DNA of 64,000 bases from Candidatus Manganitrophus noduliformans (lineage in GTDB: Bacteria; Nitrospirota; Nitrospiria; SBBL01; Manganitrophaceae), in contig NZ_VTOW01000002.1 in the NCBI RefSeq assembly GCF_012184425.1, forward strand, positions 682,001 through 746,000, in the 5' to 3' direction. Numbering within the stretch: the first letter of the stretch is position 1; each line of letters starts with the position of its first letter. The notes beneath the pieces were generated by a model, which searched no databases, was not told the origin of the DNA, and saw only the letters and a list, made by a program, of their open reading frames with translations. Below are positions 4,796-57,246 of this stretch, in pieces. The translations under genes and the position numbers were made by a program.

Positions 4796-6445
4796 ATGGC
4801 GACGATCATTCACCAAGAAGACAAACGGACAACGGATTCTCCCGGTATGGAATCGCTGGCAAGGCGGAGGGCCTATTCCCGCTCCAAAACGGCGCTCCCC
4901 TCTTTCTATCGGATCAAGCATTTTTCAAACCATCGTTCCGGGACGGCCATGCTGACCAATTGGAGCGTCGGCGGCGGGCGGATTGAAATGAGCCGGCCTT
5001 TGGAGGTCGGCACCTGGCTCGAGCTGGAATTGAAACCCGGATCGGCTTCCGACATGCCGATCCCCCCGATTCTTCGAAAGAAGCGACGGGTGCGCGCGCG
5101 GATCGTCCAAGAGGCGCCGCTCTTGTCCGACGTCGAAGCGCGAAATGGTTACGCATACGGCCTCGTCTTCGCCGTCGGCTGGAAAACGCTTTGTCGATAT
5201 CATTTTGAGCGCGCGCTTCCCTGGATCGCCCACCTCCTTTTCGCCGCCGGGATCTTTAATGTCCTCTACTTGAAGAGCTTTAATTTACACTACTTCTGGT
5301 ACGAACCGCTGATTAATCTTTACAGCCTCTTGATCTCTTTTTATATTCTCTCTCGATTCTTCCTCTCCTATTTTTACAAGCCGCCGAGGGATGCCGGGTA
5401 TTTGCCCCCCGTCACGGTGATCGTCGCTTGCAAAAACGAGGAGAACTCGATCGGCCGGACCCTCGATGCAATCTATCAATCCGATTATCCGCGTGACCGA
5501 ATGGAGGTCATCGCCGTGAACGACGGGTCCACCGACGGAACCGGCGGTGAGATGGAGCGGGCGAAGGAGCGCCATCCGGGACTCAAAATTATTCACTTCG
5601 ATAAAAACCTCGGCAAACGGCAAGGGATGGCCGCCGGGGCGCGGATGGCGACCGGGGAGATTTTGGTCTACATCGATTCCGATAGTTTTGTCAGAAGCGA
5701 GACCATCCGAAAGCTCGTTCAGGGATTTTCCGATCCGACCGTCGGCGCCGTTTGCGGACATGCCACCGTTCAGAACGCCCGGAAGAATCTTCTCACCAAA
5801 ATGCAAGAGGTCCGTTATTTTATCGCGTTCCGGGTGGTCAAGGCGGCGGAATCGGTCTTCTCCGCCGTGACCTGCTGCTCCGGCTGCCTGGCCGCCTACC
5901 GGCGCAAGCCGGTGATGGAGGTACTCGACACCTGGCTGAACCAGCGGTTTCTCGGAAGAGAGGCGACCTTCGGGGACGACCGCAGCCTGACCAACTTTAT
6001 GCTCCGGCGGTACCGGGTGATCTACCACTCCGAGGCGATCTGTACGACCCTGGTGCCGGAAACCTACCGCCAATTTTTTCGCCAGCAGCTCCGGTGGAAG
6101 AAGTCATGGATCCGGGAGAGTCTGCTTGCCGGCACTTTTATGTGGAAGCGGCATCCGATCGTCGCCTTCTTCTTTTATCTCGGGGTCCTCTTCCCGATCA
6201 TCTCCCCCCTCATCGCATTCGATAATCTGATCCTGCCGTTGATCGGATACGGAAGCCCCTCCCTTCTCTATATCTATGGCGCAACATTGATGGCCGCCGT
6301 CTATAGTCTCTACTATCTCGGCCGGTTCCGAACCGGGCTCTGGATCTACGGCATTTACTTCAGCTTCTTTTACATGTTCATCCTGGTCTGGCAAACCTAT
6401 TATGCCGTTTTGACCGTTCGGCGAAACCATTGGGGAACCCGATAA
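4796..6445 (+). CDS. PilZ domain fused to membrane family-2 glycosyltransferase (PgaC/hyaluronan-synthase-like)
   Basis: Predicted c-di-GMP-gated, membrane-embedded polysaccharide synthase, 549 residues. N-terminal PilZ domain (about 20-125) with both c-di-GMP motifs: RRxxxR at 24-29 and NxSxxG at 55-60 (NWSVGG). Two membrane segments follow (about 145-205). The GT2 domain (about 210-430) carries VIVACKNEE, the acceptor/metal motif YIDSDS, FGDDRSLT (the D-D catalytic region) and QQLRWKKSW (QxxRW, processive beta-glycan synthases). Three or four C-terminal membrane segments end the protein. The following deacetylase-like and barrel proteins suggest a poly-N-acetylglucosamine-like product. No PgaD-like partner gene is present; the fused PilZ domain may replace it. 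The next gene starts directly after the TAA. Confidence 0.9.
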   Translation: MATIIHQEDKRTTDSPGMESLARRRAYSRSKTALPSFYRIKHFSNHRSGTAMLTNWSVGGGRIEMSRPLEVGTWLELELKPGSASDMPIPPILRKKRRVRARIVQEAPLLSDVEARNGYAYGLVFAVGWKTLCRYHFERALPWIAHLLFAAGIFNVLYLKSFNLHYFWYEPLINLYSLLISFYILSRFFLSYFYKPPRDAGYLPPVTVIVACKNEENSIGRTLDAIYQSDYPRDRMEVIAVNDGSTDGTGGEMERAKERHPGLKIIHFDKNLGKRQGMAAGARMATGEILVYIDSDSFVRSETIRKLVQGFSDPTVGAVCGHATVQNARKNLLTKMQEVRYFIAFRVVKAAESVFSAVTCCSGCLAAYRRKPVMEVLDTWLNQRFLGREATFGDDRSLTNFMLRRYRVIYHSEAICTTLVPETYRQFFRQQLRWKKSWIRESLLAGTFMWKRHPIVAFFFYLGVLFPIISPLIAFDNLILPLIGYGSPSLLYIYGATLMAAVYSLYYLGRFRTGLWIYGIYFSFFYMFILVWQTYYAVLTVRRNHWGTR

Positions 6446-8353
6446 ATGAAGGAGCCGACCGATCCGTACGCTTCCATCTCCTTTCGCCAGGATCGCATTG
6501 CCTGGGGACTCTTATTTCTCCTCTCGTTTTTTCTCCTCGGCGGGGGATACCTCTGGCTTCATCGGGAGGTCGCGCCGCCCCCCGGGTTGCCGGCCGATTC
6601 CGACGACGACCCCCGCATCGCCGTCCTTGTTTACGATCATGTGACAAAAGCGAAAGGGGAGCATGTCGATCGGGAGCTCTTTCGGGAACATCTGGAGGCA
6701 TTGGAGCAACGCGGCTTCACCCCGATCACCCTCTCCGTATTGGCCGACTTTTACGAGCGGGGCCGGCCGCTTCCGCAGAACCCGCTGCTGCTCACCTTCG
6801 ATCACGGCTACCTCGACACCTATATGGCGGTCGACCCTGTCCTGCGCCGAAAAAAATGGCGCGCCGCAATGTTTGTCAAAACGGTCCGCCTGGAAAAGAG
6901 CGACACCTTCTTTCTCTACTGGGATCGGCTCCAAAGGATGGTCGACAGCGGCCTTTGGGAGATCGGATCAAACGGCCGGATCGGCAACGATCCGGCCCCG
7001 ATCGATCAGAGCGGCGAGGTCGGTCCTTTTTTAGCCCGGCGGATCTGGATGGAGAAAGAGGGCCGCCGGGAGACCGATTCCGAATTAAAAGATCGAATCC
7101 GGCAAGACTACCGATCGAGCAAGGAAGCGATCGAATCGAATCTCAGAGGGGTTCGTCCCGTTGCGTTTGCCGCGCCGTTTGGGGACTTCTCGAAAATTAC
7201 CGGCGATGCCGCCGTTGTTCACTTTAATCGGAACGCATCGGCTTCGCTCTACCCTCTCGGTTTCGTCGATGATCGATTCGGGGTCAACGACCGCTTCACC
7301 GATCCGCACGCCCTCAAGCGCCTTCGGGTCGATCCGGGCTGGTCCGGAGAGGAGTTGGTCCAACGGCTCACTTCCGCGATTGAATCGCTCCCCGACGGCG
7401 GCACTTTCGAGAACCCGCCGGTCCGATGGATCGCGGGCGAGGGGCGCATCTCTTCCGAAGGAGAAGCGCTCTTCTTGAAAGGCTTCCCTCGCACCGACCT
7501 CTGGCTTCCGGGAAGCGCCTGGACCGAAGAATGGGTGATGGAGGCCGATCTCTCGATCGAATCGGGCTCTTTCTGGCTGCTTCAGGAATCGGACTCGGGA
7601 GAGTCGTGGCGATGGGGAGGGGATCCGGCGGGCCTCTCGCTTCAACATCGGATGCCGGGGAAACCGTTGGAGACCCTCCGTCGGTTCGCCGCCGACGTGA
7701 CGCCGGGAAAACGGCATCATCTCAAGGTCATCAAACGAGGAAAAGGAATTTGGATCGAATGGGACCGCCGTCCCCTCACCGCGCACCCGGTCTATCTTCC
7801 CGGACCCTCGCGCGGGCCCCTCGGCTGGATCGGCTGGCGGACCGACGGGCCGGCGGCGCTGCAGATTTCAAACCTCCACCTCACCCGCTCTCCCGGCGAA
7901 ATCAGACCGGTAGGGGAGAACCCTTCACAAAAGGCGCTTGCCTCGCTCGTTAAGGAGGCCCCTCGGATCGCCGCCCTCTCCCCTCCCGGACTGGAGATGA
8001 CCGGGGATCGCCTGCACGAATTGCCTCTCGAATCGCAGCTCTTCAAAATCCTCTCGCATCGATACGGATGGGAGATCCTGCCGACGGTCCGGGTGTCTGC
8101 GAAGGGGAGAGAAATTCGGCGGATCAAGATGCCGGTTGACGACGGCGCATCCGTCCTCAGCGAGTCGACCCTGACCGAACTCCTCCACCGGGTTGAAAAG
8201 AAGGGATGGGGAGGAATTTATCTCGATCTCCGGCAACTCCCCCCCGCCACGCGCCAAAGCCTGCAACCGCTCCTCCGGCAATGGGGGTTTCTTTTCCAAA
8301 AAAGAGGACTGCGGCTCGCCTACGGCCCCGATGTATCGATCGATTCAAAATGA
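6446..8353 (+). CDS. PgaB-like polysaccharide deacetylase paralogue with degenerate metal site, plus LamG-like domain
   Basis: 635 residues. One N-terminal membrane anchor (about 18-38) places the rest in the periplasm. The deacetylase (CE4/PgaB-like) fold spans about 55-300. Motif 1 reads TFDHG (D119, H120) where the family has TFDD, and motif 2 reads SNGRIGN (N176, N181) where PgaB has H-x4-H. All three expected metal ligands (D, H, H) are therefore replaced, while spacing matches the intact paralogue in the next gene (56 residues between motifs in both). A beta-rich jelly-roll/LamG-like part follows (about 310-460). A C-terminal part (about 480-635) with GIYLDLRQLP may be a worn glycosidase-like barrel. 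I infer a binding or scaffold role in polymer handling rather than catalysis. The stop overlaps the next start (ATGA). Confidence 0.82.
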   Translation: MKEPTDPYASISFRQDRIAWGLLFLLSFFLLGGGYLWLHREVAPPPGLPADSDDDPRIAVLVYDHVTKAKGEHVDRELFREHLEALEQRGFTPITLSVLADFYERGRPLPQNPLLLTFDHGYLDTYMAVDPVLRRKKWRAAMFVKTVRLEKSDTFFLYWDRLQRMVDSGLWEIGSNGRIGNDPAPIDQSGEVGPFLARRIWMEKEGRRETDSELKDRIRQDYRSSKEAIESNLRGVRPVAFAAPFGDFSKITGDAAVVHFNRNASASLYPLGFVDDRFGVNDRFTDPHALKRLRVDPGWSGEELVQRLTSAIESLPDGGTFENPPVRWIAGEGRISSEGEALFLKGFPRTDLWLPGSAWTEEWVMEADLSIESGSFWLLQESDSGESWRWGGDPAGLSLQHRMPGKPLETLRRFAADVTPGKRHHLKVIKRGKGIWIEWDRRPLTAHPVYLPGPSRGPLGWIGWRTDGPAALQISNLHLTRSPGEIRPVGENPSQKALASLVKEAPRIAALSPPGLEMTGDRLHELPLESQLFKILSHRYGWEILPTVRVSAKGREIRRIKMPVDDGASVLSESTLTELLHRVEKKGWGGIYLDLRQLPPATRQSLQPLLRQWGFLFQKRGLRLAYGPDVSIDSK

Positions 8354-11300
8354 CGCCGATTTTTTTCTTTTTAGGAAACAGAGGGAAGGCCCGCTTGCGT
8401 GGGTCTCTTTATCCTGCGCTCTTAATCTTTGTCATCCTATTCGGAATCTCCCCCGCCTTTGGAAAATCACCCGGTCAAGATCTTCTCGATGAAGGGGTCT
8501 CCCTCTATCAAAAAGAGCGATACCAGGAAGCGTTGTCGCGCTTCAAGCGGGCCACCGAGCTCGATCCCGGACTTCTGAAGGGGTGGGAGAATATCGGGTG
8601 GGCCTATTACAAATTGGATCGGAAGGAGGAGGCGGTCCGGATCTGGGAAACCCTTCTCAAAATCGAGCCGGGGAATCTTCACCTGCTCAACGAAATCGGC
8701 TTTATTCACTTAAGCGGGGAGGCCTGGGAGAAGGCGGTCGTCTCTCTCCGGAAAAGCCTCCAAGTCGAACCGAACCAACCGAAGACGCGATTGCGATTGG
8801 GCGAGGCGTATCAGGCGTTGGGCCGATGGGAGAAGGCGGCACGGGAGTACGAAACGGCGCTGCGGCTCCGGCCGGGTGACCTGACGGCGATCCTACGGAG
8901 AATGGCCCTTTATGAGAAACGCGATCAGGAATTGGAGGCGATCGGCTTTCTGGAGGAGAAATTCTCTGAAACCTCCTCCCCGCTCTTGCGGTTTCACCTC
9001 GGACGCCTCCAGGCGCGGCGGGGAGATCGCGCCTATCGAAGCGGAGCCTACTCGGAGGCCGAAGCCGCCTATCAAACCGCCCTTCGGTGGGATCCGGACA
9101 ATCCCCAGTACCGGATCAACCTCGGCTGGACGAAACGGAAACAAGGGTCGACCGCGGCGGCGATTGCCGAATGGCGAGAAGCCCTCGACCGAGATCCCGA
9201 CCCAAGCCGCCTTTACCGCCCCTTGGCAGACGCCTATCTCGAACTCGGCGACAGGGCGGAGGCCCGCGCCTGGTACGAGCGGGGGTGGGGATCGGGGAGG
9301 CGGGAGCCTGAGGCGGCCTATCACCTCGCCGAAATCGCCTTTCAAGAGAATCAACGCGAGCGGGCGATCCAACGATTCAGCGATTTATCCACCCTTCCGG
9401 AGTGGGATGAAACTTGGGCGCTGCGCGTCGCAAACCTCTTCATCGCTTTGGATCAACCGGAGGAGGGGGTTTCCTTTTTCACTCAAAGAAAAACCGGGGA
9501 CCCAGGAAGGGGAAAAGCGCTCGGCCGGCTCTACGCTTATCAGGGTGGAAAGTCGTTTCGGGCCGGCGAGGTTGAGAGGGCGACACAACACTATCTTGCA
9601 GCACTCCAATTCGACAATCAGAATATGCAGGCGCTTCGGGACCTCGGCTGGTCCTACTGGAAGCAGGCGCAGTGGGACCGGTCCGAAGAGATTTGGAAAC
9701 GTTATCGCGCGGTTTATCCGGACCGTCCGGAACCGTATAATCTTCTTACGCAGATCTATCTGTACAAACGGGACTATCGCACCGCGATCGATTCAATCGA
9801 AGCAAGTTTAGCCCTCTCCCCCGATCAGCCGGATGAAAGGCTGAAGCGGGCCAAGGCTCGTTTCTGGGACGGCCGGTTCGACACGGGGAGACGGGAGGCC
9901 GAACAGCTGGCAACCCTCTATCCCGACCATCTCCCGATCCAGACCTTCTGGGGGGAGCTTCTGATGCAACACCACGATTTCAAACGGGGGAAGGAGCAAT
10001 GGCGAAAGGTGCTCGACCTCGGCTCGGTCTCTCCCAAGGCGGAGTATTTCTGGCTTCGGTCGATGTATGAATCGGGCGAATATGAGAAAGCGGTCGCCGA
10101 GGCGAAAAAGCGGGCCGGTGAGCATCCCCCGAAGCAGGCCATTCTTCGATTCTTGGCGGAAGATGCCCTCTTTCGGGAAGATAAAGAAGAGGCGGTTCGA
10201 TGGTATCGCCTCCTGACGGAAGCGTTCCCTCAACACCCTTCTTTTTGGCTGGAGCGCTCCCGGCTCTACCAGGAGATGAACCTTTTTCCGGAAAGCCTGA
10301 AAACATTGGAGCAGGCGCGGCAGGCCCACCCCGATCATCTTGAAATTCGCCTCTCCCTGACCGAGGCCGAGCGGCTCAACGGTAAATACGACGCGGCCGA
10401 GCGGCGCTACATCGAGCTGACCGAGGAATATCCCGACAACCGCCGCGCCTACATCGGCCTGCTCCAGACCCGGATCGAGGCGCGGCGCTTCAGGGAAGCG
10501 TTGGCCCTCCTGGAGCAGAACCGGAGCGCCTTCCTCAAGGGGTATGAGGTCGATCTGCAGCGGGGGGCGATCTACGCCGGGATGGGAGCCCCCGGCGACG
10601 CCGAATCGTCTTTCATGCGGGTCGCTTCGCCCGCCGAGACAACCCGCTATATTCCGATCCTCCTATATCACGGGTTGAGCGATCATCCGAGGAGCATGAA
10701 TCTTTCGGTCGATCTCTTCGACGCGCAGTTGCAGGCCCTTGGGGCCGCCGGTTATCAAACGATCACGATTCGGGAGCTCGGACGGATGGTCGACGGAAAA
10801 GAACCTTTCCCCCCCAAACCGATTTTGATCACCTTCGACGACGCCCGGATCGACGCGTTTCTCCTCGGCGACCCGATTCTGGCCAAACATGGGATGAAGG
10901 CGACGATGTTCGTTCCGACGGCGAAGATCACCGATCAAAACCCCTTTTTCGCCGATTGGGAGATGATCCGAAAATACGCCGGGACCGGACGGTGGGACCT
11001 GCAGAGCCACGGCGATCACGCCCACGATCTGATCCCGATCGACGCCGCCGAACAGATCGGCGGCTTCCTCGTCAACCGGCTCTGGATCAAAGAGCAGGAG
11101 CGGCTGGAGACCCGAGAGGAATATCTGCAGCGACTGGAGATCGATTATCGGCAAAGCCGCCGTTTGCTCGACCGGGAGGTCGCCGGACTCGATCTGATCG
11201 GCTATGCGTTCCCCTTCTCCGAGGCGGGACAGGAGAATATCGGGAACGAGCCGCGCGCCGCCGAATTTAACGAACAGCTGCTGGCGAAATATTTCCGGTT

Positions 11301-12528
11301 CGGGTTTGTCCAGGATCAAAACGGATATAACGCGATCGAGCCGGGCCCCGCTCCTGCCGGCCGGATGCTCCGCCGCTTCTCCGTTCCCCGCTCCTGGGAT
11401 GGGAAAAAACTTCTTGCGCATCTGACCGCCCAGCATCCCGGCCTCGCGGCCACGATCCGAATCGGCCAATCCTATTATTGGAGCGGGCGGTATGATACGG
11501 CGCGCGCGCTTTTCGAACGGCTTCCGGCCGAAGCGCCCTTGCTCAAAGGGGACAGCGCCTATTATCTGGCGGCCCTTTCCTATCAGCAGGGACGATATCG
11601 AGAAGCCGCGCGGCACTTTAGCCTCTCTCTCGCCGAAGGCTCGGAGCGGGCCGGGAATAGCGCCTCGCTGTTGAGGCAGATCGCGTGGCAAAATCAAGCT
11701 CAGACCGGAATCCGGTTCGGCCTCTTTCACGATTCCAACGACCGCAGCAACCGCTGGCAATCGCTCCTCTTTCGATACCCGCTCGCCCACCCGATCGACC
11801 TGTCGTTCGAGATCGGCCGGATCTCCTTTCGAGAAAACGGTTTCTCCCCGTTATCCGGCCAGGAATTGCGTGTCGGGGCGCGCTGGCAGACCTCGGCGCA
11901 GATTCTTTTGGAAGGGAGCGTTCGCGCGCGTTTCTTGGAGGGGGGAGACGATACCGGAAATTTATGGCTGACGGGGAAATATCAGGCCGACCATCAAGAA
12001 ATTCACCTCCGATGGGCGTATGAAGATGTGGAAACCCTTCAAGCGCATCGGATCGGTCTTCAGACACGGAACGGCGGATTTCGTTACCGCCTCCGGTTGA
12101 CATCGCAGTGGCGCGGCGACGTCGATTTTTTATACCGCTCTTATGAAGATGGAAACGAGCGGACCGACTTCCGAACGGGCCTCTCTTATCAGCTCCTTGC
12201 CTGGCCGGGGTGGCGGGTCGGCGCCGCGTTCACGCGGAGCGACACCCGCTTCCAATCGGACCGGTATTATACCCCGGCCGGGTTGAACGTCGGCCGCGCG
12301 ACCCTTTCCTATCGAAAGGCCTGGGATTCGGGAACGCTTCTGGAAGGAGAGGGGGGGATCGGCCTCGCCGAGGACACGCTGCGCGGAACCCGCTGGGTGG
12401 GATATGGCGAGATCAAATCGGTTCAGGCCTGGACCGACCAGATCCGATCGAGCCTCGCCTGGGACTACAACCGCTCGCCGGGCTACCGTAGTTGGACGGT
12501 GGAGGCGATGGCCCACTATCGGTTCTGA
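8350..12528 (+). CDS. TPR - polysaccharide deacetylase - outer-membrane beta-barrel fusion (PgaB + PgaA-like)
   Basis: 1392 residues from the ATG at 8350, coupled by ATGA overlap to the previous gene. A hydrophobic signal segment (about 18-38) is followed by some 18 tetratricopeptide repeats (about 38-755). A PgaB-type deacetylase domain (about 765-1050) has intact residues: TFDD (D830, D831) and H-x4-H in SHGDHAHD (H887, H892), matching the base plus metal ligands described for PgaB. Two more TPR-like helices (about 1060-1110) precede a C-terminal beta-barrel of about 280 residues with alternating aromatic/polar strands and a terminal Phe (AMAHYRF), as in PgaA porins. In E. coli, PgaA (TPR+porin) and PgaB (deacetylase) are separate proteins; here both functions seem joined in one chain spanning periplasm and outer membrane. 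Partner synthase at 4796. Confidence 0.88.
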   Translation: MTPIFFFLGNRGKARLRGSLYPALLIFVILFGISPAFGKSPGQDLLDEGVSLYQKERYQEALSRFKRATELDPGLLKGWENIGWAYYKLDRKEEAVRIWETLLKIEPGNLHLLNEIGFIHLSGEAWEKAVVSLRKSLQVEPNQPKTRLRLGEAYQALGRWEKAAREYETALRLRPGDLTAILRRMALYEKRDQELEAIGFLEEKFSETSSPLLRFHLGRLQARRGDRAYRSGAYSEAEAAYQTALRWDPDNPQYRINLGWTKRKQGSTAAAIAEWREALDRDPDPSRLYRPLADAYLELGDRAEARAWYERGWGSGRREPEAAYHLAEIAFQENQRERAIQRFSDLSTLPEWDETWALRVANLFIALDQPEEGVSFFTQRKTGDPGRGKALGRLYAYQGGKSFRAGEVERATQHYLAALQFDNQNMQALRDLGWSYWKQAQWDRSEEIWKRYRAVYPDRPEPYNLLTQIYLYKRDYRTAIDSIEASLALSPDQPDERLKRAKARFWDGRFDTGRREAEQLATLYPDHLPIQTFWGELLMQHHDFKRGKEQWRKVLDLGSVSPKAEYFWLRSMYESGEYEKAVAEAKKRAGEHPPKQAILRFLAEDALFREDKEEAVRWYRLLTEAFPQHPSFWLERSRLYQEMNLFPESLKTLEQARQAHPDHLEIRLSLTEAERLNGKYDAAERRYIELTEEYPDNRRAYIGLLQTRIEARRFREALALLEQNRSAFLKGYEVDLQRGAIYAGMGAPGDAESSFMRVASPAETTRYIPILLYHGLSDHPRSMNLSVDLFDAQLQALGAAGYQTITIRELGRMVDGKEPFPPKPILITFDDARIDAFLLGDPILAKHGMKATMFVPTAKITDQNPFFADWEMIRKYAGTGRWDLQSHGDHAHDLIPIDAAEQIGGFLVNRLWIKEQERLETREEYLQRLEIDYRQSRRLLDREVAGLDLIGYAFPFSEAGQENIGNEPRAAEFNEQLLAKYFRFGFVQDQNGYNAIEPGPAPAGRMLRRFSVPRSWDGKKLLAHLTAQHPGLAATIRIGQSYYWSGRYDTARALFERLPAEAPLLKGDSAYYLAALSYQQGRYREAARHFSLSLAEGSERAGNSASLLRQIAWQNQAQTGIRFGLFHDSNDRSNRWQSLLFRYPLAHPIDLSFEIGRISFRENGFSPLSGQELRVGARWQTSAQILLEGSVRARFLEGGDDTGNLWLTGKYQADHQEIHLRWAYEDVETLQAHRIGLQTRNGGFRYRLRLTSQWRGDVDFLYRSYEDGNERTDFRTGLSYQLLAWPGWRVGAAFTRSDTRFQSDRYYTPAGLNVGRATLSYRKAWDSGTLLEGEGGIGLAEDTLRGTRWVGYGEIKSVQAWTDQIRSSLAWDYNRSPGYRSWTVEAMAHYRF

Positions 12529-12554: not shown

Positions 12555-13622
12555 TCAACGGCCGGTTTTCCGGCCGCTTCGTTCGGCCAGGCGCGGAAGA
12601 AATTCCGGATCTTGCCTTCCCAGGCTCCAGAAGACGACATTCCGGTAGCCAAACGACTCCAAGGCGGCGATCTTCTCCATCAAACTCTCGGCATCTTCAT
12701 AATAGACCGTGTGGCGGCCTCCTGCGTCGGTGTAGATGAAATAAGGAACGTTTCCGTTCGGATCACGCAGGATCTCCGCTCGATGGGCCTCGGCGAGAGA
12801 AGCGGCGCGATCATATTGAACCCCCTCCGCGTGCTCCCCTCCCCATTTCATCCCGCTGACCTTGAGAATCGGGACCACCCGCTCGCGAGGGCATTGGCTC
12901 TCGGCAAACTGAAGGATCTCTTTGATCCAGGCAGGGGTGGCGATCGGGCCGGGGCCGCTTTTTCCGCTGTGAAGATTGTAAAGCATGATCTGCAATCGAT
13001 CGGCCGATCGGCAGAGGTCGGCCCAGTCGGCGGCGCCGGGCCCGTCGGCGCGGCTCTCCCGCGCCTTCGGTTGAACGGTGACCGATAAGAGAATCCCCTT
13101 CTGCTTTAAATCGGCCGCCAGCTCACGGATAAACAGGCTAAAAAGATCCCGATCGACCGCCCGAAGATTTTCATAGTCGATATCGACCCCGGCAAAGCCG
13201 TGCGTCGCCGCGAGCCTGACGATCTCGCTTCGGTGCTGCCGGCGACGATCCGGATCGCTCAGGAGATCGTGGATGACCTGCGGGTCTTTCAAGATGACCG
13301 CTCCCCCCGCAGACGGTTTGACGTCGTTCACGACCGTCAGCCAGGGAAGCGCGTTGCCCTCCTTGACCCGTCCCGCTTCCAGATTGAACGGAATGTTCTT
13401 GTTGGCGAAAACCGGAGCACCTTCCGAATCGAGGTGGGCGGCGAAGAAATAGATGTCGTTGAGGAGCGACGGCGCGCTCCGAACTGAATCGATTCCTCGG
13501 TTGTAATCCCAATAAGTCACCCAGGCGCCGAGCCGCGCCGGCTTCGCTCCGCCGGACGCACAGGCAGCCAGGAAGAGCGGGAGGATAAAAAGAGACATAC
13601 GGAAGCGCCGTCCTAGCAACAT
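12555..13622 (-). CDS. GH18-like glycoside hydrolase lipoprotein
   Basis: 355-residue exported lipoprotein with lipobox LAAC near residue 20 (FILPLFLAACASGG). The barrel has the GH18 (chitinase/endo-beta-N-acetylglucosaminidase) active-site strand GFAGVDIDYENL: the DxDxE core is intact, but the first Asp of DxxDxDxE is Ala. Further GH18-like strands are LLSVTVQPK, LQIMLYN and VVFWSLGRQDP. Start ATG at 13622 with AAGG nine bases upstream; ATG 13598 (MSLFILP) is an alternative. It converges on the exopolysaccharide operon with a 26-bp gap. A role in trimming that polymer is attractive but only inferred; peptidoglycan or spore-type GH18 relatives are possible. Confidence 0.8.
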   Translation of the reverse strand: MLLGRRFRMSLFILPLFLAACASGGAKPARLGAWVTYWDYNRGIDSVRSAPSLLNDIYFFAAHLDSEGAPVFANKNIPFNLEAGRVKEGNALPWLTVVNDVKPSAGGAVILKDPQVIHDLLSDPDRRRQHRSEIVRLAATHGFAGVDIDYENLRAVDRDLFSLFIRELAADLKQKGILLSVTVQPKARESRADGPGAADWADLCRSADRLQIMLYNLHSGKSGPGPIATPAWIKEILQFAESQCPRERVVPILKVSGMKWGGEHAEGVQYDRAASLAEAHRAEILRDPNGNVPYFIYTDAGGRHTVYYEDAESLMEKIAALESFGYRNVVFWSLGRQDPEFLPRLAERSGRKTGR

Positions 13623-13649
13623 CGCAAAATACCTTGTTGAGTGTAGCGG

Positions 13650-13667
13650 CCGCGCGTTCACGCGCGG
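13650..13667. repeat. Intergenic palindrome CCGCGCGT-TC-ACGCGCGG
   Basis: Perfect 8-bp arms with a 2-nt loop lie in the GTAG(C)GGC...-type setting also seen in the palindromes at 22059 and 48908. It sits 28 bp upstream of the GH18 gene start and does not look like a terminator. Confidence 0.45.
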
Positions 13668-13776
13668 TCGAAAGGGAGGAAATCTTTGAACGATGTAAAA
13701 ATTTGGATTTTCTATTTTGAATTGAAACAGATTAAATCTCAAAAATCTAGACCTGGCCCTTTTCCCCAGCATGCTT

Positions 13777-29442: not shown

Positions 29443-31194
29443 CTATACCGATAACGACTTCAACCGGTTCTCTGTAGATTGAAAAAGATCGGACGGACGA
29501 TCGGCCGCCGGAGAGCGCTCCGGACGGGAATCTTCGATATCCAGCCGTTCGCTCCTTGTCAACTCATCCAGCGGAAGGGTGATAAAAAAGGTGGTTCCCT
29601 TGGAAGAGCTCTCGACGCGAATTTCTCCCGCATGTTCTTCGATGATCCGCTGGACGATCGACAGACCCAAACCCGATCCGGAGCTTTTTGTCGTGAAGAA
29701 GGGATAAAAGATTTTCGGGAGATCTCCCTTTTGAATCCCCCCTCCCGTGTCGGCGAAAAGGACCTCGATCCGCTCGTCGGAGACCACCGCTCCTTTCCCT
29801 TTTTTAGGACGGCTCCGCCGCGTCGAAATCGTCAGCACCCCTTCTTCCGGCATCGCTTGAAAGGCATTGATCGAGAGATTCCAGAAAACCTGCCGGATCT
29901 GGTCGGGATCGATCAGAATCATCTGCGGCTCCGACGGAATCAGCAGGGAAACCTTGATCCGATCGTGATACTCCGGATGATTCTGAAGAAGCTGGACCGT
30001 TTCCGATAAAAGCGCGTGGAGATCGGTCCGCCTTCGCCGCGGCGGCAGCGGCTTCGCGTAAAGAAGAAATTGCGTGATAATCGAGTTGAGCCGGTCCGCT
30101 TCTCTGACGGCGATCTCCATCAACTTAAGATGTTCATCGCGGAGGTTGAGGTCGCCTTTGAGCACCTCGATCGAACCGCTGAGGGAGGCGAGCGGGTTTC
30201 GGATCTCATGGGCCATTCCGGCCGCCATCTCTCCGATGGTCGCCAGACGCTCCTTCTTTTGCATCTCTTCTTCGAGGCTTTTTAGCTGGGTCAAATCCTG
30301 GAACGTCCCGATAATTCCGATTTGCCCCCCGTGCTCGTTCCGAAGGGGCGAGATCGTCACGCCGAGCAGGCAGCGCTCTCCCTGCTTCGTAGAAATCTCT
30401 CCGTCGAATCGCTGCGGAACGCCGGTAATCGCAAGATCTCGGTAGCGGTCCCGAATCTCCCCCCAGGAGAAGAGCTCCCACCAGATCGATCCGACCGCCT
30501 CTTCCGCCCGAAAACCGGTCATTTCGGAGGCCGACCGGTTAAACGAGGTGATCTTTCCGGAAAGATCGGTCGTCACGAGACCGCTCGAGATACTCTCCAC
30601 GATGTCTTCCGTGAAAACGCGCAGCTTTGAAAACCCGACCTCTTTCTCATGCAATCGCTCCGAGAGCCTTCCGCTGAGGCTGCCGACGGTAAAGAAGGTG
30701 ATCATATAAAGAAAGAGCATATAAAACACCTCTTTCTCGCCGAGCAGACTGGGGGAATTGAAAGGAGGAACGTGGGCATATTGTAGATTCACGACGGTGC
30801 CGAATAAAAACGTCGCCGCGGCCGCGGTCAGCACCCCCCCCTTGCGGTGGAAGAAGATGCAGGCCGAAACGATCGTAATGACGTAAAGAAAAGAAAAGGG
30901 GCTCTGAATCCCTCCTGTCACTACGATCAGGGCCGTTTCGAACAAAAGGTCGATCCCCAACTGAACGGAGACGAAAAAGAGGGGATACCGCGTCCGCGAA
31001 ATGAAGAGGGCATAAACAAGGGTGAGGAAATAGGTCGACCCGATCAGGAAATAAAAGGTGGTGATCGACCATGGGTTTTTGAGGTAATTGAGCTGCAGCA
31101 GAAGTGGGATACCGAGAAGGGAGGTCACCAGGAAGATCCGGAGGGCCATCAGCCACTTGATCCTCCCCAGAATGATCTCGTCTTCTCTTTTCAT
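29443..31194 (-). CDS. pilS: PilS-type membrane sensor histidine kinase
   Basis: 583 residues. Six hydrophobic segments (about 14-185) as in PilS, then a PAS domain (about 200-310, ITSFNRSASEMTGF), HisKA with phospho-His H329 (GMAHEIRNPLASL), and HATPase_c with the N box (FWNLSINAFQAM), ADTGGGI and GSGLGLSIVQRI. Together with PilR it forms a two-component system, by analogy sensing pilin in the membrane. Confidence 0.93.
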   Translation of the reverse strand: MKREDEIILGRIKWLMALRIFLVTSLLGIPLLLQLNYLKNPWSITTFYFLIGSTYFLTLVYALFISRTRYPLFFVSVQLGIDLLFETALIVVTGGIQSPFSFLYVITIVSACIFFHRKGGVLTAAAATFLFGTVVNLQYAHVPPFNSPSLLGEKEVFYMLFLYMITFFTVGSLSGRLSERLHEKEVGFSKLRVFTEDIVESISSGLVTTDLSGKITSFNRSASEMTGFRAEEAVGSIWWELFSWGEIRDRYRDLAITGVPQRFDGEISTKQGERCLLGVTISPLRNEHGGQIGIIGTFQDLTQLKSLEEEMQKKERLATIGEMAAGMAHEIRNPLASLSGSIEVLKGDLNLRDEHLKLMEIAVREADRLNSIITQFLLYAKPLPPRRRRTDLHALLSETVQLLQNHPEYHDRIKVSLLIPSEPQMILIDPDQIRQVFWNLSINAFQAMPEEGVLTISTRRSRPKKGKGAVVSDERIEVLFADTGGGIQKGDLPKIFYPFFTTKSSGSGLGLSIVQRIIEEHAGEIRVESSSKGTTFFITLPLDELTRSERLDIEDSRPERSPAADRPSDLFQSTENRLKSLSV

Positions 31195-31225
31195 CGACCG
31201 ATCCTGCCGAAGTATCGCAACCCGT

Positions 31226-32431
31226 TTATCCCACCACCGAGGCCAGTTTGAAGATCGGAAGGTACATGGCGATCACGATCGTTCCGATGGTGATACCAAG
31301 GAAGACCATCAGCATCGGCTCCAGCAACGAGGTGAGGGCGCCGACCGCCGAATCGACCTCGTCGTCGTAAAAATCGGCGATTTTGCTCAGCATGGCGTCG
31401 AGCGCCCCGGTCGTCTCCCCGACCGCGATCATCTGGACCACCATCGGAGGGAAAACTTTCTCTTTCCCGAGCGGATCTGAAATGGTCTTCCCTTCGCTGA
31501 TGCTTTGACGGGCGTTCATGAGCGCCTGCTCGATAATTTTATTTCCCGCCGTCTTCGCGACGATCCCCAGCCCCTCGAGAATCGGCACACCGCTGGCGAT
31601 CAATGTCCCTAAGGTCCGTGTAAACTTCGCAACGGCGGCCTTCCGGATCAAATCACCAAGAACCGGGAGTTTTAGAGCAATCTTGTCGACCGTCTTCCTT
31701 CCACTCGGCGTCCGGTAATATTTTTTGAAACCAAAAACGGCCAAGCCGACGGCCCCTACAATGATGAGGATATTCGATTTCATGAAATAGCTGATATCGA
31801 TGACAAACTGGGTCAGCGCCGGAAGGGTGCCGCCGAAATCGGTAAACATCTGCGCAAAAATCGGGATCACGAAGACGAGCAAGACCACAATCACGATCCC
31901 CGCCACCCCCATGATGGTGGAGGGATAGACCATCGCCGATTTGATCTGCTTTTTCAATTTCATCGATTTTTCAATGTGCTTCGCCAACCGATTCAAAATC
32001 GTATCGAGAATCCCCCCCGCCTCCCCAGCGGCCACCATGTTCACATAGAGGTCATCGAAGACTTTGGGGTGTTTCCGCAAGGCATCGGCATAGGTCGATC
32101 CTCCCTCCACATCCCCCCGGACCTCTCCGACCGCCTTTGCTAAAACCGGATTCTCGCATTGCGCCGATAAAATTTCAAGACATTGCACCAGCGGAAGCCC
32201 GGCGTCGATCATGGTGGCGAATTGCCGCGTGAAGATCACAATATCCTTATCGCTGACCTTCCCTCCGCCGAATCCCGGGATCTTGAGATCTTTGGCCTTT
32301 TGCTGAACGGAGGTGACAAGGATATTTTCCTTTCTGAGAAGCGCGATGACCTCCTCCCGGCTGTTCGCCGCCAGCTGCCCTTTCTGAATCGTCCCCTGTC
32401 GGGTCTTCCCCGTCCATTCAAACGTCGCCAT
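31226..32431 (-). CDS. pilC: Type IV pilus inner-membrane platform protein PilC
   Basis: 401 residues, GspF superfamily. Two T2SSF domains (about 65-190 and 268-390: TRQFATMIDAGLPLVQ and FTRTLGTLIASGVPILEGL). Membrane helices near 170-190 and 212-235 (GVAGIVIVVLLVFVIPIFAQM) and at the C-terminus. Follows pilT (36 bp) and pilB in one operon; anchors the assembly and retraction ATPases. Confidence 0.95.
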   Translation of the reverse strand: MATFEWTGKTRQGTIQKGQLAANSREEVIALLRKENILVTSVQQKAKDLKIPGFGGGKVSDKDIVIFTRQFATMIDAGLPLVQCLEILSAQCENPVLAKAVGEVRGDVEGGSTYADALRKHPKVFDDLYVNMVAAGEAGGILDTILNRLAKHIEKSMKLKKQIKSAMVYPSTIMGVAGIVIVVLLVFVIPIFAQMFTDFGGTLPALTQFVIDISYFMKSNILIIVGAVGLAVFGFKKYYRTPSGRKTVDKIALKLPVLGDLIRKAAVAKFTRTLGTLIASGVPILEGLGIVAKTAGNKIIEQALMNARQSISEGKTISDPLGKEKVFPPMVVQMIAVGETTGALDAMLSKIADFYDDEVDSAVGALTSLLEPMLMVFLGITIGTIVIAMYLPIFKLASVVG

Positions 32432-32467
32432 GGATCGCTCCTTGATGACTGGGTGTCATCGTTTTTT

Positions 32468-33586
32468 CTAGTTCCGAACCATCTTCCCCGGATCGCGAGC
32501 GGCCGAACCCGGACCGGCCCCTCCGCCGCGATTGACCATGTTGATCAGCTCCTCGACATTGCTCGATCTCGCAAGCGCGTCTTCATACGAGATGATCCGT
32601 TTTGTGTATAGCTCATACAGCGACTGGTTCATCGTCTGCATTCCATGTTTCCCTTGACCGGTCTGCATGGAAGAGTAAATCTGATGGACCTTGTCCTCGC
32701 GGATGAGGTTCCGGATCGCCGGCGTCGGGATCAGGACCTCCATCGCCATCGCCCTCCCTTGGCCGTTCGACTTGGCGATCAGCTGCTGCGAGATGATCCC
32801 CTCCAACACGAACGAAAGCTGTGCCCGGACCTGAGGCTGCTGATGGGGCGGGAAAACATCGATGATCCGGTTGACCGTTTGCGCGCAGGAGTTGGTGTGA
32901 AGGGTCCCGAAGGTCAGATGGCCTGTTTCCGAGATGGTGAGCGCCGCCTCGATCGTCTCCAGATCGCGCATCTCCCCGATCAACACGACATCGGGGTCTT
33001 GGCGAAGAATATATTTCAATGCCGCCTTGAAGCTCTTTGTATCGGTCGTCACCTCCCGCTGGTTCACCACCGATTTCTTATGGGGATGAAGAAACTCGAT
33101 CGGGTCTTCGATGGTCAGGATATGATCGTGGCGTTCCGAGTTGATCCGATCGATCATGGAGGCCAGGGTGGTCGATTTTCCGCTTCCGGTCGGCCCGGTC
33201 ACCAGGACCAATCCCCTCGGTTTCTTGACCAACTCTTGGACCACGTGAGGGAGTCCTAATTCTTCAAACGTTTTGATTTTGAAAGGGATGGTCCGAATGG
33301 CCGCGCCGACCGCGCCCCGCTGCATGAAAATATTGCCTCGGAATCGGCTAAAGCCCTTCAATCCGAATGAGAAGTCGAGCTCGTTTTCCTCTTCAAATCG
33401 ATGCTTCTGCGCATCGGTCAGAACACTGTAGACCAGCTGCTTCGTATCGGCCGGCGTCAGCTGCGGGAGATCGAGCGGCGTCAGATGTCCGTTGACCCGA
33501 ATCTGGGGGGCGGAGCCTGTCGTCAGATGCAAATCCGACGCACCCTTTTCAATCATGATCTGAAGTAACTGATGCAAATTGGCCAT
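32468..33586 (-). CDS. pilT: Type IV pilus retraction ATPase PilT
   Basis: 372 residues. Walker A GPTGSGKSTT (K137). Asp box ILTIEDPIEFLH. Walker B region RQDPDVVLIGEMRDLETIE. His box GHLTFGTLHTNS. The C-terminal motif AIRNLIREDKVHQI is characteristic of PilT rather than PilB. Drives pilus depolymerisation for twitching and DNA uptake. Between pilB and pilC. Confidence 0.97.
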   Translation of the reverse strand: MANLHQLLQIMIEKGASDLHLTTGSAPQIRVNGHLTPLDLPQLTPADTKQLVYSVLTDAQKHRFEEENELDFSFGLKGFSRFRGNIFMQRGAVGAAIRTIPFKIKTFEELGLPHVVQELVKKPRGLVLVTGPTGSGKSTTLASMIDRINSERHDHILTIEDPIEFLHPHKKSVVNQREVTTDTKSFKAALKYILRQDPDVVLIGEMRDLETIEAALTISETGHLTFGTLHTNSCAQTVNRIIDVFPPHQQPQVRAQLSFVLEGIISQQLIAKSNGQGRAMAMEVLIPTPAIRNLIREDKVHQIYSSMQTGQGKHGMQTMNQSLYELYTKRIISYEDALARSSNVEELINMVNRGGGAGPGSAARDPGKMVRN

Positions 33587-33599
33587 GCGTGCTCCTTAC

Positions 33600-35396
33600 T
33601 TAATCCGCAAACGTGCTGTCCAACACCTCTTCGATCGTGGTCATTCCCTCTTTGACCTTCGATAAGCCGCTCATCCGAAGGGTTTTCATCCCAAGAGAGA
33701 TCGCCTTTTTTTTGAGCTCATCCGCGGAAGCCCCTTGGAGGATCAATTCTCTCAGTTCCTCTTTCACCGGCATTACTTCATAGAGCGCCACCCGCCCTTT
33801 GTAGCCTGTTTTGTTGCAAACATCACACCCCTTCCCCTTGTAAATCACCAAACCTTTCAGCTCTTCCTGTTTGAAACCGGCCTTCAGAAGCGCATCGGGA
33901 GGGAGACTATCGGGCTCCTTGCATTTGGCGCAGATTCTTCTGGCGAGCCGCTGCGCCAGGATGAGAACGACTGAGGAGGCGACCAGAAAAGGCTCAATCC
34001 CCATGTTGAGGAGACGATTGACCGTACCGGGGGCGTCATTGGTGTGAAGGGTCGATAAGACCAGATGGCCGGTGAGGGCCGCTTTGACGCCGATCTCGGC
34101 CGTCTCATAATCCCGGATCTCTCCGACCATGACGACATCGGGATCTTGCCGGAGAAACGATCGGAGGGCCGCCGCGAAATTCAGGCCGATTTCATCTTTC
34201 ATCTGAACCTGATTGATCCCCATCAGGTTATACTCCACCGGATCTTCCGCCGTCATGATATTGATTTCGGTGGTATTGATGGTGCTCAGGGCGGAATAGA
34301 GGGTGGTCGTCTTTCCGCTTCCGGTCGGCCCGGTCACCAACACCATTCCATACGGAGCGTTGATCGCCTCCGTAAAGTCTTTCAGCGCCCCCTCTTCGAA
34401 ACCGAGTTTGGTCAAATCGAGGGAAAGGTTTCCCTTATCGAGGATACGCATCACCACCTTCTCCCCGAAGAGGCAGGGAAGGGTGGAGACACGGAAATCG
34501 ACCTCTTTCTTCTTTCCGAGCTTCAGTTTGATCCGTCCGTCCTGGGGGAGCCGGCGCTCCGCGATATCGAGCTTCGACATGATCTTCAGACGGGAGACCA
34601 CGGCGTTCTTGATCTTGATCGGAAGATTCATGATCGTCTTCATCGAGCCGTCGATCCGGAACCGGACCCGAAAAACGGTTTCAAAAGGCTCCACATGAAT
34701 ATCGCTGGCGCCCACTTTGATCGCATTGACCAAGACGCCGTTGACCAGCTTGACGATAGGAGCATCGACATCTTTGATTCCCCCGTCATCCTGCTGCTCC
34801 TCGACAACATCGATGTTCTCCAGGGCGTCTCCCACCACGGTATCGAAGTCATCGACCGAGACCATGGCGTTGTCTTCATCCTGGCCTTGGAAACCACCCG
34901 TATCTTCTTCCGAGAGGGTATAGTCTTTGGCCTCGATCGTCATTGTCTTCTCGACGACGGCCAGGGCTCCCTTGCCGTAATACTTATTGATCAATTCGAC
35001 CACGGAAGACTCCGCGGCGATGATCGGCTCGACGTTGTAACCGGTCATGAACTTGATGTCATCTATCGCAAAGACATCGGAGGGATCGACCATCGCGAGG
35101 CTCAGCGTGGCTCCCATCCGCTTGATCGGAACAACCAGATATTTCTTCACCACTTCGGCCGGAACCAATTTGACCACCGCAGGGTCGATCTCTATCTTTG
35201 TAAGGTCCGCCGCCGGAACGCCATACTGTTGGCTTAAGAATTTCAACAGTTTGGCTTCATCGATAAATCCCAAGCGAACCAGAATGCTCCCGAGCCGCCC
35301 CCCCTCTTTCTTCTGGACCAGCAACGCCTTTTGGAGCTGCTCATCGTTAATCAACTGCGCATTCACGATGAGCTTTCCAAGTTTTTCCGAAACCAA
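33600..35396 (-). CDS. pilB: Type IV pilus extension ATPase PilB
   Basis: 598 residues from a TTG at 35396 (MVSEKLGKLIVNAQLI) with GAGGGG nine bases upstream; the frame stays open to 35540, but that stretch has no PilB-like sequence. N-terminal MshEN-type domain (about 1-140) that may bind c-di-GMP: LGKLIVNAQLINDEQLQKAL and GVPAADL. ATPase core: Walker A GPTGSGKTTT (K362), EDPVEYNLMGINQVQ, RQDPDVVMVGEIRD, and a tetracysteine zinc site (CAKC ... CDVC). Confidence 0.94.
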   Translation of the reverse strand: MVSEKLGKLIVNAQLINDEQLQKALLVQKKEGGRLGSILVRLGFIDEAKLLKFLSQQYGVPAADLTKIEIDPAVVKLVPAEVVKKYLVVPIKRMGATLSLAMVDPSDVFAIDDIKFMTGYNVEPIIAAESSVVELINKYYGKGALAVVEKTMTIEAKDYTLSEEDTGGFQGQDEDNAMVSVDDFDTVVGDALENIDVVEEQQDDGGIKDVDAPIVKLVNGVLVNAIKVGASDIHVEPFETVFRVRFRIDGSMKTIMNLPIKIKNAVVSRLKIMSKLDIAERRLPQDGRIKLKLGKKKEVDFRVSTLPCLFGEKVVMRILDKGNLSLDLTKLGFEEGALKDFTEAINAPYGMVLVTGPTGSGKTTTLYSALSTINTTEINIMTAEDPVEYNLMGINQVQMKDEIGLNFAAALRSFLRQDPDVVMVGEIRDYETAEIGVKAALTGHLVLSTLHTNDAPGTVNRLLNMGIEPFLVASSVVLILAQRLARRICAKCKEPDSLPPDALLKAGFKQEELKGLVIYKGKGCDVCNKTGYKGRVALYEVMPVKEELRELILQGASADELKKKAISLGMKTLRMSGLSKVKEGMTTIEEVLDSTFAD

Positions 35397-35615
35397 AGGA
35401 ACCCCTCGATATGAACAGATAACCTGGGATCGGTCCGACCGAACGAAGGAATGACGAGAGCCGACCGGCGAACCACGCTTCCGACATGAAAACCACAAAA
35501 ATACTGAGAAAAGTCTATCCCAAGTTACAATTTCTGTCAACGAAACGGGGGATGAGACAAAAAATGGCGCCTACCGATCCGGGATCGGTTTTATTCTCTC
35601 TTCTTTTTCGAAAAA

Positions 35616-40499: not shown

Positions 40500-41023
40500 A
40501 TCCGTTCCCCCGCCAAGTAGGCCTTGATCTGATCGGAATGCCCCACCAGGCCGGCGAGCAGGCCGAGCGCAACCAGCAGGACCAGCGGCATCCAGGGAAC
40601 GAGGACCGGCAGCCCCTTTGGGGGAAGGAGCCAGACGCCGTAATTGAGCCACCAGGCCATCTGTGAGCGGGTATCGAAGAGATAATGCGTTGCGAACATG
40701 AAGGTGAGCAGGCGCGCCTCCTTCTCCCCATATCGGCGGAAGAGGAGAGGAGACAGGATAAAGATCGGCGTATGGAAGAAACTCCGGTATTGCGCCCAGA
40801 TCACATGATCGATGTCGGGAATCAGGGTCGTGAAGATCCGGAGGAAAATCATCGGAGAGAACCCCTCCAGGACGATCAAGACAAAAAAGGCGAGGACGAG
40901 GTGGGTGGTCGCTTCCAGGAAAAGATAAAGATGCCAGTGGCTGACCCAGAGGGGCTGCCCGTATTTCTCGAAGAGGAGATAAAAAAGTATAATTCCCGAC
41001 ATCGGCAAGATAAAGCGCCTCAT
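40487..41023 (-). CDS. YdjM/DUF457-like membrane metal-dependent hydrolase
   Basis: 178 residues with four or five membrane segments. The conserved polar residues of the YdjM-type membrane hydrolase family are present: TTHLVLAFF, LIPDIDHVIW (PDxDH), SFFHTPIF and FATHYLFD. Substrate unknown; homologues often act on lipids or are DNA-damage induced. ATGA overlap with the glycosyltransferase gene upstream. Confidence 0.75.
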   Translation of the reverse strand: MRRFILPMSGIILFYLLFEKYGQPLWVSHWHLYLFLEATTHLVLAFFVLIVLEGFSPMIFLRIFTTLIPDIDHVIWAQYRSFFHTPIFILSPLLFRRYGEKEARLLTFMFATHYLFDTRSQMAWWLNYGVWLLPPKGLPVLVPWMPLVLLVALGLLAGLVGHSDQIKAYLAGERMWVS

Positions 41024-42762
41024 CCGACCTCCTCCCGCTTCTCCGGAACTTCCGCCAATCCCGCGACGGGGCCGAGTTCCGGACTCCCGGACGCAACGTC
41101 CCCTTCCTTTCTTTTCTTATCGGTCACCCAAAAGGTGAGATAACGCCCCAGCATCAAGCGGGTCTGCGCATCGACCGCGGGCAATCCGACCAGGAAAATA
41201 TAAGAGAGGGGGACCAATGCCCACTGCAATGTCATCGAAACGGTCCGCCATCGGCCGTAGCGCGCGGGGCGCGGGGGAAGGAGCGCATGACAGAGAAAGA
41301 CCGAGAGGAACACGCCGACCAGCGCCATCGATAAGATCGACCGGGTGGTCGCGGTAAAATTATAAGCGAGCACCGTCTGATAAAATTCTCTCCCGCCGAC
41401 CAACAGGGGAAGGCTCCCGAAGACCGGAATGACAAAAGGGGCGCTCCCCCAGCTGTAATTCCCCTCGAGCATTCGGAAGACATGCTTAATTTTCTTTCGA
41501 AGCGGAATGGCCCGATCGATTAAGAACCCCCGCATCATCAAGGGGAACTTCTCGATCCCCCAGGCCCACCGCCGCATCTGTTTATATTGATTAATCAGCG
41601 TCCGCCAGTAACTCTCCGCCAGGTTCGCATCCATCGAAACGGGAACATAAAGCGGGATCGTCTCATACTGTCCCCCATAATACAAGTAGCAGGAGTAGAA
41701 AATCACCGAGTCGTCCGAAATGACATCGACCGGCCAATACCCGACCTCCACCAACGCCTTGAACGACATCGCGTGGCTGGAGAAGGTGATGAGGAGATCG
41801 GGCCGGATGCTCTGCACCATGTGCCAGAAGGTGGTGCTGTTGGCGACCACCCGCGCGAACGACGGCGCATCCCAGATATTGTTATGATACATCGGAAGCG
41901 GCTGGTAGCTTCGCCGGGTCCGCTGCGGGTGGATGATGTAGTTGTAAGTGAGGCAGCCGAAGTACTGCCGATCGACGCAGGTATCGGCGTCGAAGGCGGA
42001 AAGGATCACCCGGTCATAAGGAATGTTCTCCCGGTCCAGGTATTGCTTGGCCTGGCGGGCCGCCCAGGCCATGTTCGCCCCTTTGACGCGCGCCTCGCCC
42101 GGAATCCCGTCGGGATGAAAGGTCGTTAAGAAGGCGCCGAAGGAAGATCCAAACTCCTGCCGAAGGGCCTTCGCCTTCCGGTAGGCCGGAATCCCCTCTC
42201 GCTCCTCGAAGGCGAGCACCACGATCATCCGCTCATTCGGATAGTCGGCCTGCAAGAGGGCCCTCAATGAAGAACGAAGGATTTCGAGCCCTTCCTGATA
42301 AGTCGGGAAGATCACCAGATGGCGGATTGTCGTCCAATCCCAGACGTCGACCTTTTCCGTTTCGATTCGCCGGATTTCCTGCAGATGAAGACGCAGGCTC
42401 TGAAGCCTCCGCTTTGGAGCCCCTTCTCTTTCGGCGCGCGCCGTCTCCTCCTCGATCTCCCGGCGATAGGCCGGAATTTCCCCCGACGCTTTTTCGCATC
42501 GCCTCCGCCAATCAGTCCCCCACTCCATCCGCACCCGCCGGTAAGCGAGGAGCATGAAGATGGAAAAATAGGTCACGCGGATCAGCCAATAAAGGTCGTA
42601 AGCGATGATGAAGATCGCGACGGCGACCGGTTGAAAGAAGGAGAAAATAAAAAGGCCGAGAAAGGTCGACCAGAGGAGAAGGCCGGGAACGATCTCAAAG
42701 GCGCGCTGCAGGAGCGCATCCCTTCGGTGGGACGTGCGGGGAGAAGGAAGAAAAACACCCAT
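41020..42762 (-). CDS. Membrane glycosyltransferase, family 2-like
   Basis: 580 residues. Two N-terminal membrane segments (about 25-75), a charged coiled-coil insert (about 85-135: EIPAYRREIEEETARAEREG), the GT2-like domain (about 145-400: LVIFPTYQEGLEILRSSLRALL, LSAFDADTCVD, VISDDSVIF, QYKQMRRWAWG with QxxRW-like QMRRW), and four C-terminal membrane segments. Product unknown. Start ATG overlaps the TAA of the previous gene (TAATG). Confidence 0.85.
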   Translation of the reverse strand: MGVFLPSPRTSHRRDALLQRAFEIVPGLLLWSTFLGLFIFSFFQPVAVAIFIIAYDLYWLIRVTYFSIFMLLAYRRVRMEWGTDWRRRCEKASGEIPAYRREIEEETARAEREGAPKRRLQSLRLHLQEIRRIETEKVDVWDWTTIRHLVIFPTYQEGLEILRSSLRALLQADYPNERMIVVLAFEEREGIPAYRKAKALRQEFGSSFGAFLTTFHPDGIPGEARVKGANMAWAARQAKQYLDRENIPYDRVILSAFDADTCVDRQYFGCLTYNYIIHPQRTRRSYQPLPMYHNNIWDAPSFARVVANSTTFWHMVQSIRPDLLITFSSHAMSFKALVEVGYWPVDVISDDSVIFYSCYLYYGGQYETIPLYVPVSMDANLAESYWRTLINQYKQMRRWAWGIEKFPLMMRGFLIDRAIPLRKKIKHVFRMLEGNYSWGSAPFVIPVFGSLPLLVGGREFYQTVLAYNFTATTRSILSMALVGVFLSVFLCHALLPPRPARYGRWRTVSMTLQWALVPLSYIFLVGLPAVDAQTRLMLGRYLTFWVTDKKRKEGDVASGSPELGPVAGLAEVPEKREEVG

Positions 42763-57124: not shown

Positions 57125-57154
57125 GGGTTTCCCACATGTTTCATACTCCATTTG

Positions 57155-57183
57155 AGTGTAACAGTCGATCCCCCTTTTGACAA
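57155..57183 (-). promoter_or_regulatory. Sigma-70-like promoter for the FN3 lipoprotein gene
   Basis: Minus strand TTGTCA (57183-57178), 17-bp spacer, TACACT (57160-57155), about 30 bp before ATG 57124. Confidence 0.5.
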
Positions 57184-57217
57184 GAAAACGGCCGTTCCGT
57201 CGTGCCATGTCTGATCC

Positions 57218-57246
57218 TTGACGTGTCCCGGCCAATCCTCTATAAT
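57218..57246 (+). promoter_or_regulatory. Sigma-70 promoter for lysS
   Basis: TTGACG (57218-57223), 17-bp spacer, TATAAT (57241-57246), 77 bp before the lysS ATG. Nearly consensus. Confidence 0.75.

Follow-up and report, generated by a model that had tools for sequence, protein, structure and literature searches.

A PgaB-like protein that has lost its deacetylase residues as a candidate polymer-binding scaffold in a Nitrospirota exopolysaccharide operon

Introduction

In cellulose synthesis, the membrane-anchored periplasmic protein BcsB carries carbohydrate-binding folds and guides the chain from the synthase. The closest described counterparts of the protein studied here are PgaB and BpsB, which combine a PNAG de-N-acetylase with a GH153 hydrolase in pgaABCD operons. 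The porin-proximal TPRs of E. coli PgaA bind the deacetylase domain of PgaB, raise its activity and bind the polymer; how polysaccharide gets through the periplasm, from synthase to porin, is still not well understood (PMC9384988). A survey of exopolysaccharide operons describes divergent and duplicated pgaB genes and N-terminal GT fusions, and the part of its text considered here contains neither a dead PgaB paralogue nor a CE4 domain inside a porin (PMC7112194). Our search of open-licence papers found no description of a dead PgaB paralogue. Inactive NodB folds as such are already known, namely Ba0150 (4M1B) and EcCDA (2VYO) (PMC10967932).

Results

Organization of the locus

We analysed a window of 64,000 nt from Candidatus Manganitrophus noduliformans (Nitrospirota; genome G000), contig NZ_VTOW01000002.1, positions 682,001–746,000. 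The genes and the domain relevant here are as follows.

4796–6445, + strand: GT2 polysaccharide synthase, NodC/PgaC-like, with a PilZ-like N-terminus
6446–8353, + strand: pseudo-deacetylase gene, 635 aa
8350–12528, + strand: partner protein of 1392 aa (Pfam, NCBIfam), consisting of TPRs, an intact CE4, further TPRs and a predicted outer-membrane barrel
10651–11469, + strand: intact CE4 of the partner, with H774, D830, D831, H887 and H892
12555–13772, − strand: intact GH18 lipoprotein from a convergent gene (PF00704, E=4e-21; catalytic DIDYE kept; lipobox)

The ATG of the pseudo-deacetylase gene lies immediately after the TAA of the GT2 gene, and its TGA shares four bases with the partner ATG at 8350. 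Because the gene abuts the stop on one side and overlaps the next start on the other, we regard the GT2 synthase, the pseudo-deacetylase and the TPR-CE4-barrel fusion as one unit. The synthase matches the NodC model with E=5e-56 and the PgaC/IcaA model with E=3e-44, both under the cut-off; among the synthase orthologues, only that of G302, a genome of another class, has a PilZ match at the Pfam cut-off. The TPR stretch of the partner gives a weak TIGR03939 match, while its outer-membrane barrel is predicted from position and composition. As in pgaABCD operons, a GT2 synthase, a deacetylase and a TPR porin occur together, in the same gene order in five genomes; in place of a separate PgaA and a live PgaB, however, the porin gene itself encodes the live CE4, and the free copy looks dead. 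The neighbouring GH18 gene keeps DxDxE in 5/5 clusters and the lipobox in 4/5.

G000 also carries a second locus, L003:277-3590 (G000:C2 near 213101-213742), which is a conventional pgaA/pgaB-like pair with an intact deacetylase. Elsewhere in the window, we observed a PilS-like histidine kinase with a T2SSE/MshEN ATPase at 29443–35540, belonging to a type IV pilus or type II secretion cluster, a 580-aa ORF at 41020–42762 with no Pfam match at E 1e-5, and an 861-aa ORF at 54650–57235 that carries fibronectin III and FG-GAP repeats and probably encodes a surface protein.

Orthologues and distribution

Four orthologues of the pseudo-deacetylase were found: G002 (same genus, 73% identity), G028 (same class, 44%), G011 (same order, 41%) and G302 (same phylum, another class, 25%). 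They reach three other families, so that the five loci represent four families and two classes, in a sample of five sequences that come mostly from metagenome-assembled genomes of one phylum. Each orthologue adjoins the same synthase and fusion gene, and the frame is open over 626–645 aa in 5/5 genomes. The distribution is patchy: the gene is present in 4 of 269 searched genomes of the class, G000 included, and in 1 of 20 searched genomes of the family of G302. Three other species of the genus (G003, G004 and G005) have no pseudo gene; a partial match in G005 to a 689-aa PgaB-like frame was left out of the class count. The fusion gene, among the genomes searched, occurs only where the pseudo-deacetylase gene is also present. 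A single-protein scan of genome contigs returned no orthologue, and an alignment-based scan returned only three orthologues already found plus one intact CE4, L040. The phylum sample around the L040 genome contained no orthologue in a search run without a positive control, and a plasmid search gave partial PgaB-like matches only.

The CE4 fold is kept and its catalytic residues are replaced

The domain and residues concerned are listed below.

6605–7381, + strand: pseudo-CE4 (NodB2/PgaB-type) domain, residues 54–312
6635–6637, + strand: D64, in place of the motif-5 catalytic-acid His
6800–6805, + strand: D119 (base, kept) and H120 (in place of the metal Asp)
6971–6973, + strand: N176, in place of metal His1
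6986–6988, + strand: N181, in place of metal His2

An earlier note, made from the DNA letters, had described this frame as a deacetylase paralogue of conserved fold with H120, N176 and N181 at the ligand positions, and both the frame and the residues are exactly as it described. By sequence and predicted structure, the domain is a genuine CE4/NodB fold with a recognisable CE4 sequence: it matches Pfam PF01522 (E=3e-14) and BpsB 5bu6 (E=3e-18), and its predicted fold gives Z values of 19.4 to PgaB 3vus and 19.7 to PplD 6dq3, in a model of modest confidence (mean pLDDT 63). The match to TIGR03938 PgaB (E=5e-24) reaches 84.6 bits and stays below the curated equivalog cut-off of 321.9. The spacing between H120 and N176 is 56, the same as between D831 and H887 in the partner CE4, again in agreement with the note.

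Among the catalytic residues, the motif-1 base D119 is the sole survivor; it is kept in 4/5 orthologues and is Glu in G302. The Asp-His-His metal site and the motif-5 His are replaced at all four positions in 5/5 orthologues, and an intact catalytic site was found in none of them (0/5). We aligned the pseudo family with PgaBs, with the intact CE4s of fusion proteins and with one further CE4. The motif-5 position is His in the eight intact CE4s and D/D/G/E/A in the five orthologues, while the metal Asp position reads H/H/R/T/G, metal His1 N/N/N/Y/M and metal His2 N/N/P/T/V. Of 16 columns invariant in the eight intact CE4s, three are lost in all five pseudo members, namely the motif-5 His, the metal Asp and metal His1 (hypergeometric count 0.007, a guide only for so few and related sequences); metal His2 is lost too, and is missing from the 16 only because the reference CE4 L040 has another His spacing. 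The loss of ligands proposed in the note thus extends to all five loci, but the trio H/N/N is not conserved: the residues differ between families, which rules out a fixed H/N/N trio. Since the replacing residues are not conserved, the old active site is not under one fixed constraint. Several surface positions are invariant and specific to the pseudo family, namely G71, H73, F102, D160, L293 and R294.

We also searched residues 1–330 of the five orthologues for H-x2..5-H and DD and found no His or Asp pair able to restore the site, so the shifted motif that would have contradicted the note did not appear. HLWLH in the membrane helix of G028 and HLKNH in G011 are not common to the orthologues and lie away from the site, and every DD pair found sits outside motif 1. 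Together, the residue pattern suggests that the pseudo-deacetylase is catalytically inactive.

A predicted membrane anchor, a predicted lectin-type fold and a probable truncated GH18-like end

Outside the pseudo-CE4, three further parts of the chain are predicted.

6476–6562, + strand: predicted N-terminal membrane helix, residues 11–39, present in the model
7418–7897, + strand: lectin-type β-sandwich of CBM66/LamG-like fold, residues 325–484
7919–8350, + strand: truncated GH18-like half barrel, residues 492–635

The region of residues 11–39 is the sole strongly hydrophobic stretch in 5/5 orthologues, and positive charge is greater before the helix than after it in 4/5; the chain beyond the helix is predicted to face the periplasm. 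The lectin-type domain matches 4b1m in Foldseek (E=6e-10) and 4azz with Z 17.2 over 151 residues, and had no match in the Pfam search. The LamG-like domain of the earlier note therefore holds as a predicted fold (CBM66, Z 17) and not as a Pfam match, and a lectin-type fold in the model is consistent with the carbohydrate binding for which the domain had been cited.

When residues 492–635 were folded alone, all 50 entries listed in the fold comparison were GH18-fold entries, with Z up to 7.9; Foldseek alone was weak (best E 0.03), and a profile match to the neighbouring GH18 gave E 2.5e-5 against 0.69 for the reversed control. Although Z alone is middling, the unanimity of the fold list and the controlled profile match make a truncated GH18-like domain the likely identity of the C-terminus. 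The position of the catalytic Glu is R596 (codon 8231–8233) and reads R/R/R/S in the four closer orthologues, G302 being too divergent there to read; an active GH18 has a complete barrel with DxxDxDxE, whereas this segment has 144 residues. Set beside the C-terminal GH153 domain of PgaB-type proteins, it matches GH18-fold entries (Z up to 7.9) over about half a barrel. The intact counterparts of both dead domains, CE4 and GH18, are products of adjacent genes. These counterparts, the dead GH18-like end, the membrane anchor and the lost motif-5 His go beyond what the note had described.

Selection and origin

In a comparison of G000 with G002, the NG86 method gives the intact CE4 a dN/dS of 0.113, the pseudo-CE4 0.16–0.19, the C-terminal part 0.19 and the lectin fold 0.21; with dS near 0.9 these values are rough, and decay would give about 1. 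The gene is under purifying selection and is not decaying, in line with the selection that the note had suspected. Recent decay is ruled out by these values together with the orthologues, none of which among the five loci carries an intact D/H/H.

In a 61-row CE4 tree, which replaced a weak 14-row tree, the pseudo family and the fusion CE4s form one clade with support 100/99 versus 52 others, the added outsiders having been filtered to keep the [FY]DD motif. Because of this single clade, the simple reading is that the pseudo-CE4 arose by CE4 duplication inside the operon. After the duplication, one copy would have joined the porin and kept catalysis, and the free copy would have lost it. The branches of the pseudo family are longer than those of the fusion CE4s, and the G302 member sits beside the fusion CE4s on a long branch; catalytic residues may have been lost independently in its lineage. 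In the G302 fusion (L071:9680-13582), the CE4 has a broken motif 1 and lacks the motif-5 His as well as both metal His. The two CE4 domains of this operon thus look dead, and since the partner CE4 is dead too, a live partner CE4 is not always required. A separate CE4 gene adjoins the G302 cluster (L071:13593-14669, − strand), and live deacetylase activity may have moved again in this lineage.

Discussion

We propose, with a rough probability of 0.55, that the dead PgaB-like protein is an inner-membrane-anchored periplasmic scaffold that binds polymer between the NodC/PgaC-like synthase and the porin, probably holding or guiding the polymer rather than cutting it. The nascent GlcNAc-type chain would exit the GT2 synthase and be gripped by the lectin-fold domain and by the empty groove of the pseudo-CE4. 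It would then be handed on to the partner, whose TPR superhelix would receive it and whose intact CE4, within the porin chain, would deacetylate it ahead of export; the truncated GH18-like end would contribute a binding surface or docking site. The exported polymer is presumably a GlcNAc polymer, and we lean towards a beta-1,4 linkage, as the synthase is nearer to NodC than to PgaC models and has a GH18 neighbour. A scaffold is the best explanation because the live CE4 here sits where the porin-proximal TPRs of PgaA bind the deacetylase domain of PgaB. In its favour are a retained fold whose catalytic residues are replaced in 5/5 orthologues, the purifying selection, the lectin-type fold, the single pseudo/fusion clade, the occurrence of the fusion only alongside the pseudo gene, and the kept gene order. 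Against it count the five-sequence sample, the variable residues at the replaced ligand positions, the model pLDDT of 63, the dead partner CE4 of G302, and D119 kept in 4/5 orthologues, so that some chemistry is possible.

Rather unlikely is a pure protein-protein adaptor or allosteric regulator, whose CE4-like surface would dock the TPRs or the synthase and control assembly or activity without polymer contact. PgaA TPRs do bind the PgaB deacetylase domain (PMC9384988), which makes a CE4-shaped surface a natural docking part, and the active-site positions drift freely while several pseudo-specific surface positions are invariant; the lectin-type and GH18-like domains, however, are carbohydrate-binding folds. 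We regard as improbable a re-tooled enzyme, that is, a metal-independent hydrolase or other NodB-fold chemistry using D119 together with pseudo-family residues like H73, D160 and R294. Metal-independent NodB-fold enzymes exist (3CL6, PMC10967932), and H73 is kept in 5/5 orthologues and D119 in 4/5, but the lost ligands are not replaced by any constant set of polar residues, and D119 becomes Glu in G302. A functionless copy decaying since the CE4 moved into the porin gene is largely refuted and very improbable: the longer branches and the weaker constraint than in the intact CE4 (0.16–0.19 versus 0.113) fit it, but the open frames in 5/5 genomes, the purifying selection, the four-base overlap with the next gene and a loss common to two classes do not.

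The scaffold reading leads to a more tentative proposal, namely a class of export operons in which the free PgaB-like protein may be an all-dead guide (CE4, lectin, GH18-like), with the live CE4 in the porin and a GH18 lipoprotein next door. With a conserved dead processing enzyme and a natural fusion of the live enzyme to the porin, carrying and cutting fall to different proteins, and the question of polymer passage becomes testable with two proteins.

Among known systems, Ba0150 and EcCDA are likewise NodB folds without catalytic residues, but they lie outside exopolysaccharide operons, 4M1B derives from peptidoglycan deacetylases, and no live partner CE4 within a porin chain is described there. 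BcsB has an unrelated fold, and its likeness to the pseudo-deacetylase would be a functional analogy only. The partner resembles PgaA, BcsC and PelB in its long TPR superhelix and in the barrel region at its C-terminus, whereas its chain holds an intact CE4 between the TPRs and the barrel, where PgaA only binds the enzyme. Like PgaB and BpsB, the pseudo-deacetylase combines a CE4 of the NodB2 type with a barrel-type hydrolase-like domain behind it, and its operon also encodes a GT2 synthase and a TPR porin. It differs from them in lacking the metal His/Asp2 and the motif-5 His, in a predicted membrane helix that takes the place of the lipid anchor, in the lectin fold between the two domains, and in a C-terminus that appears to be a GH18-like half without the catalytic Glu.
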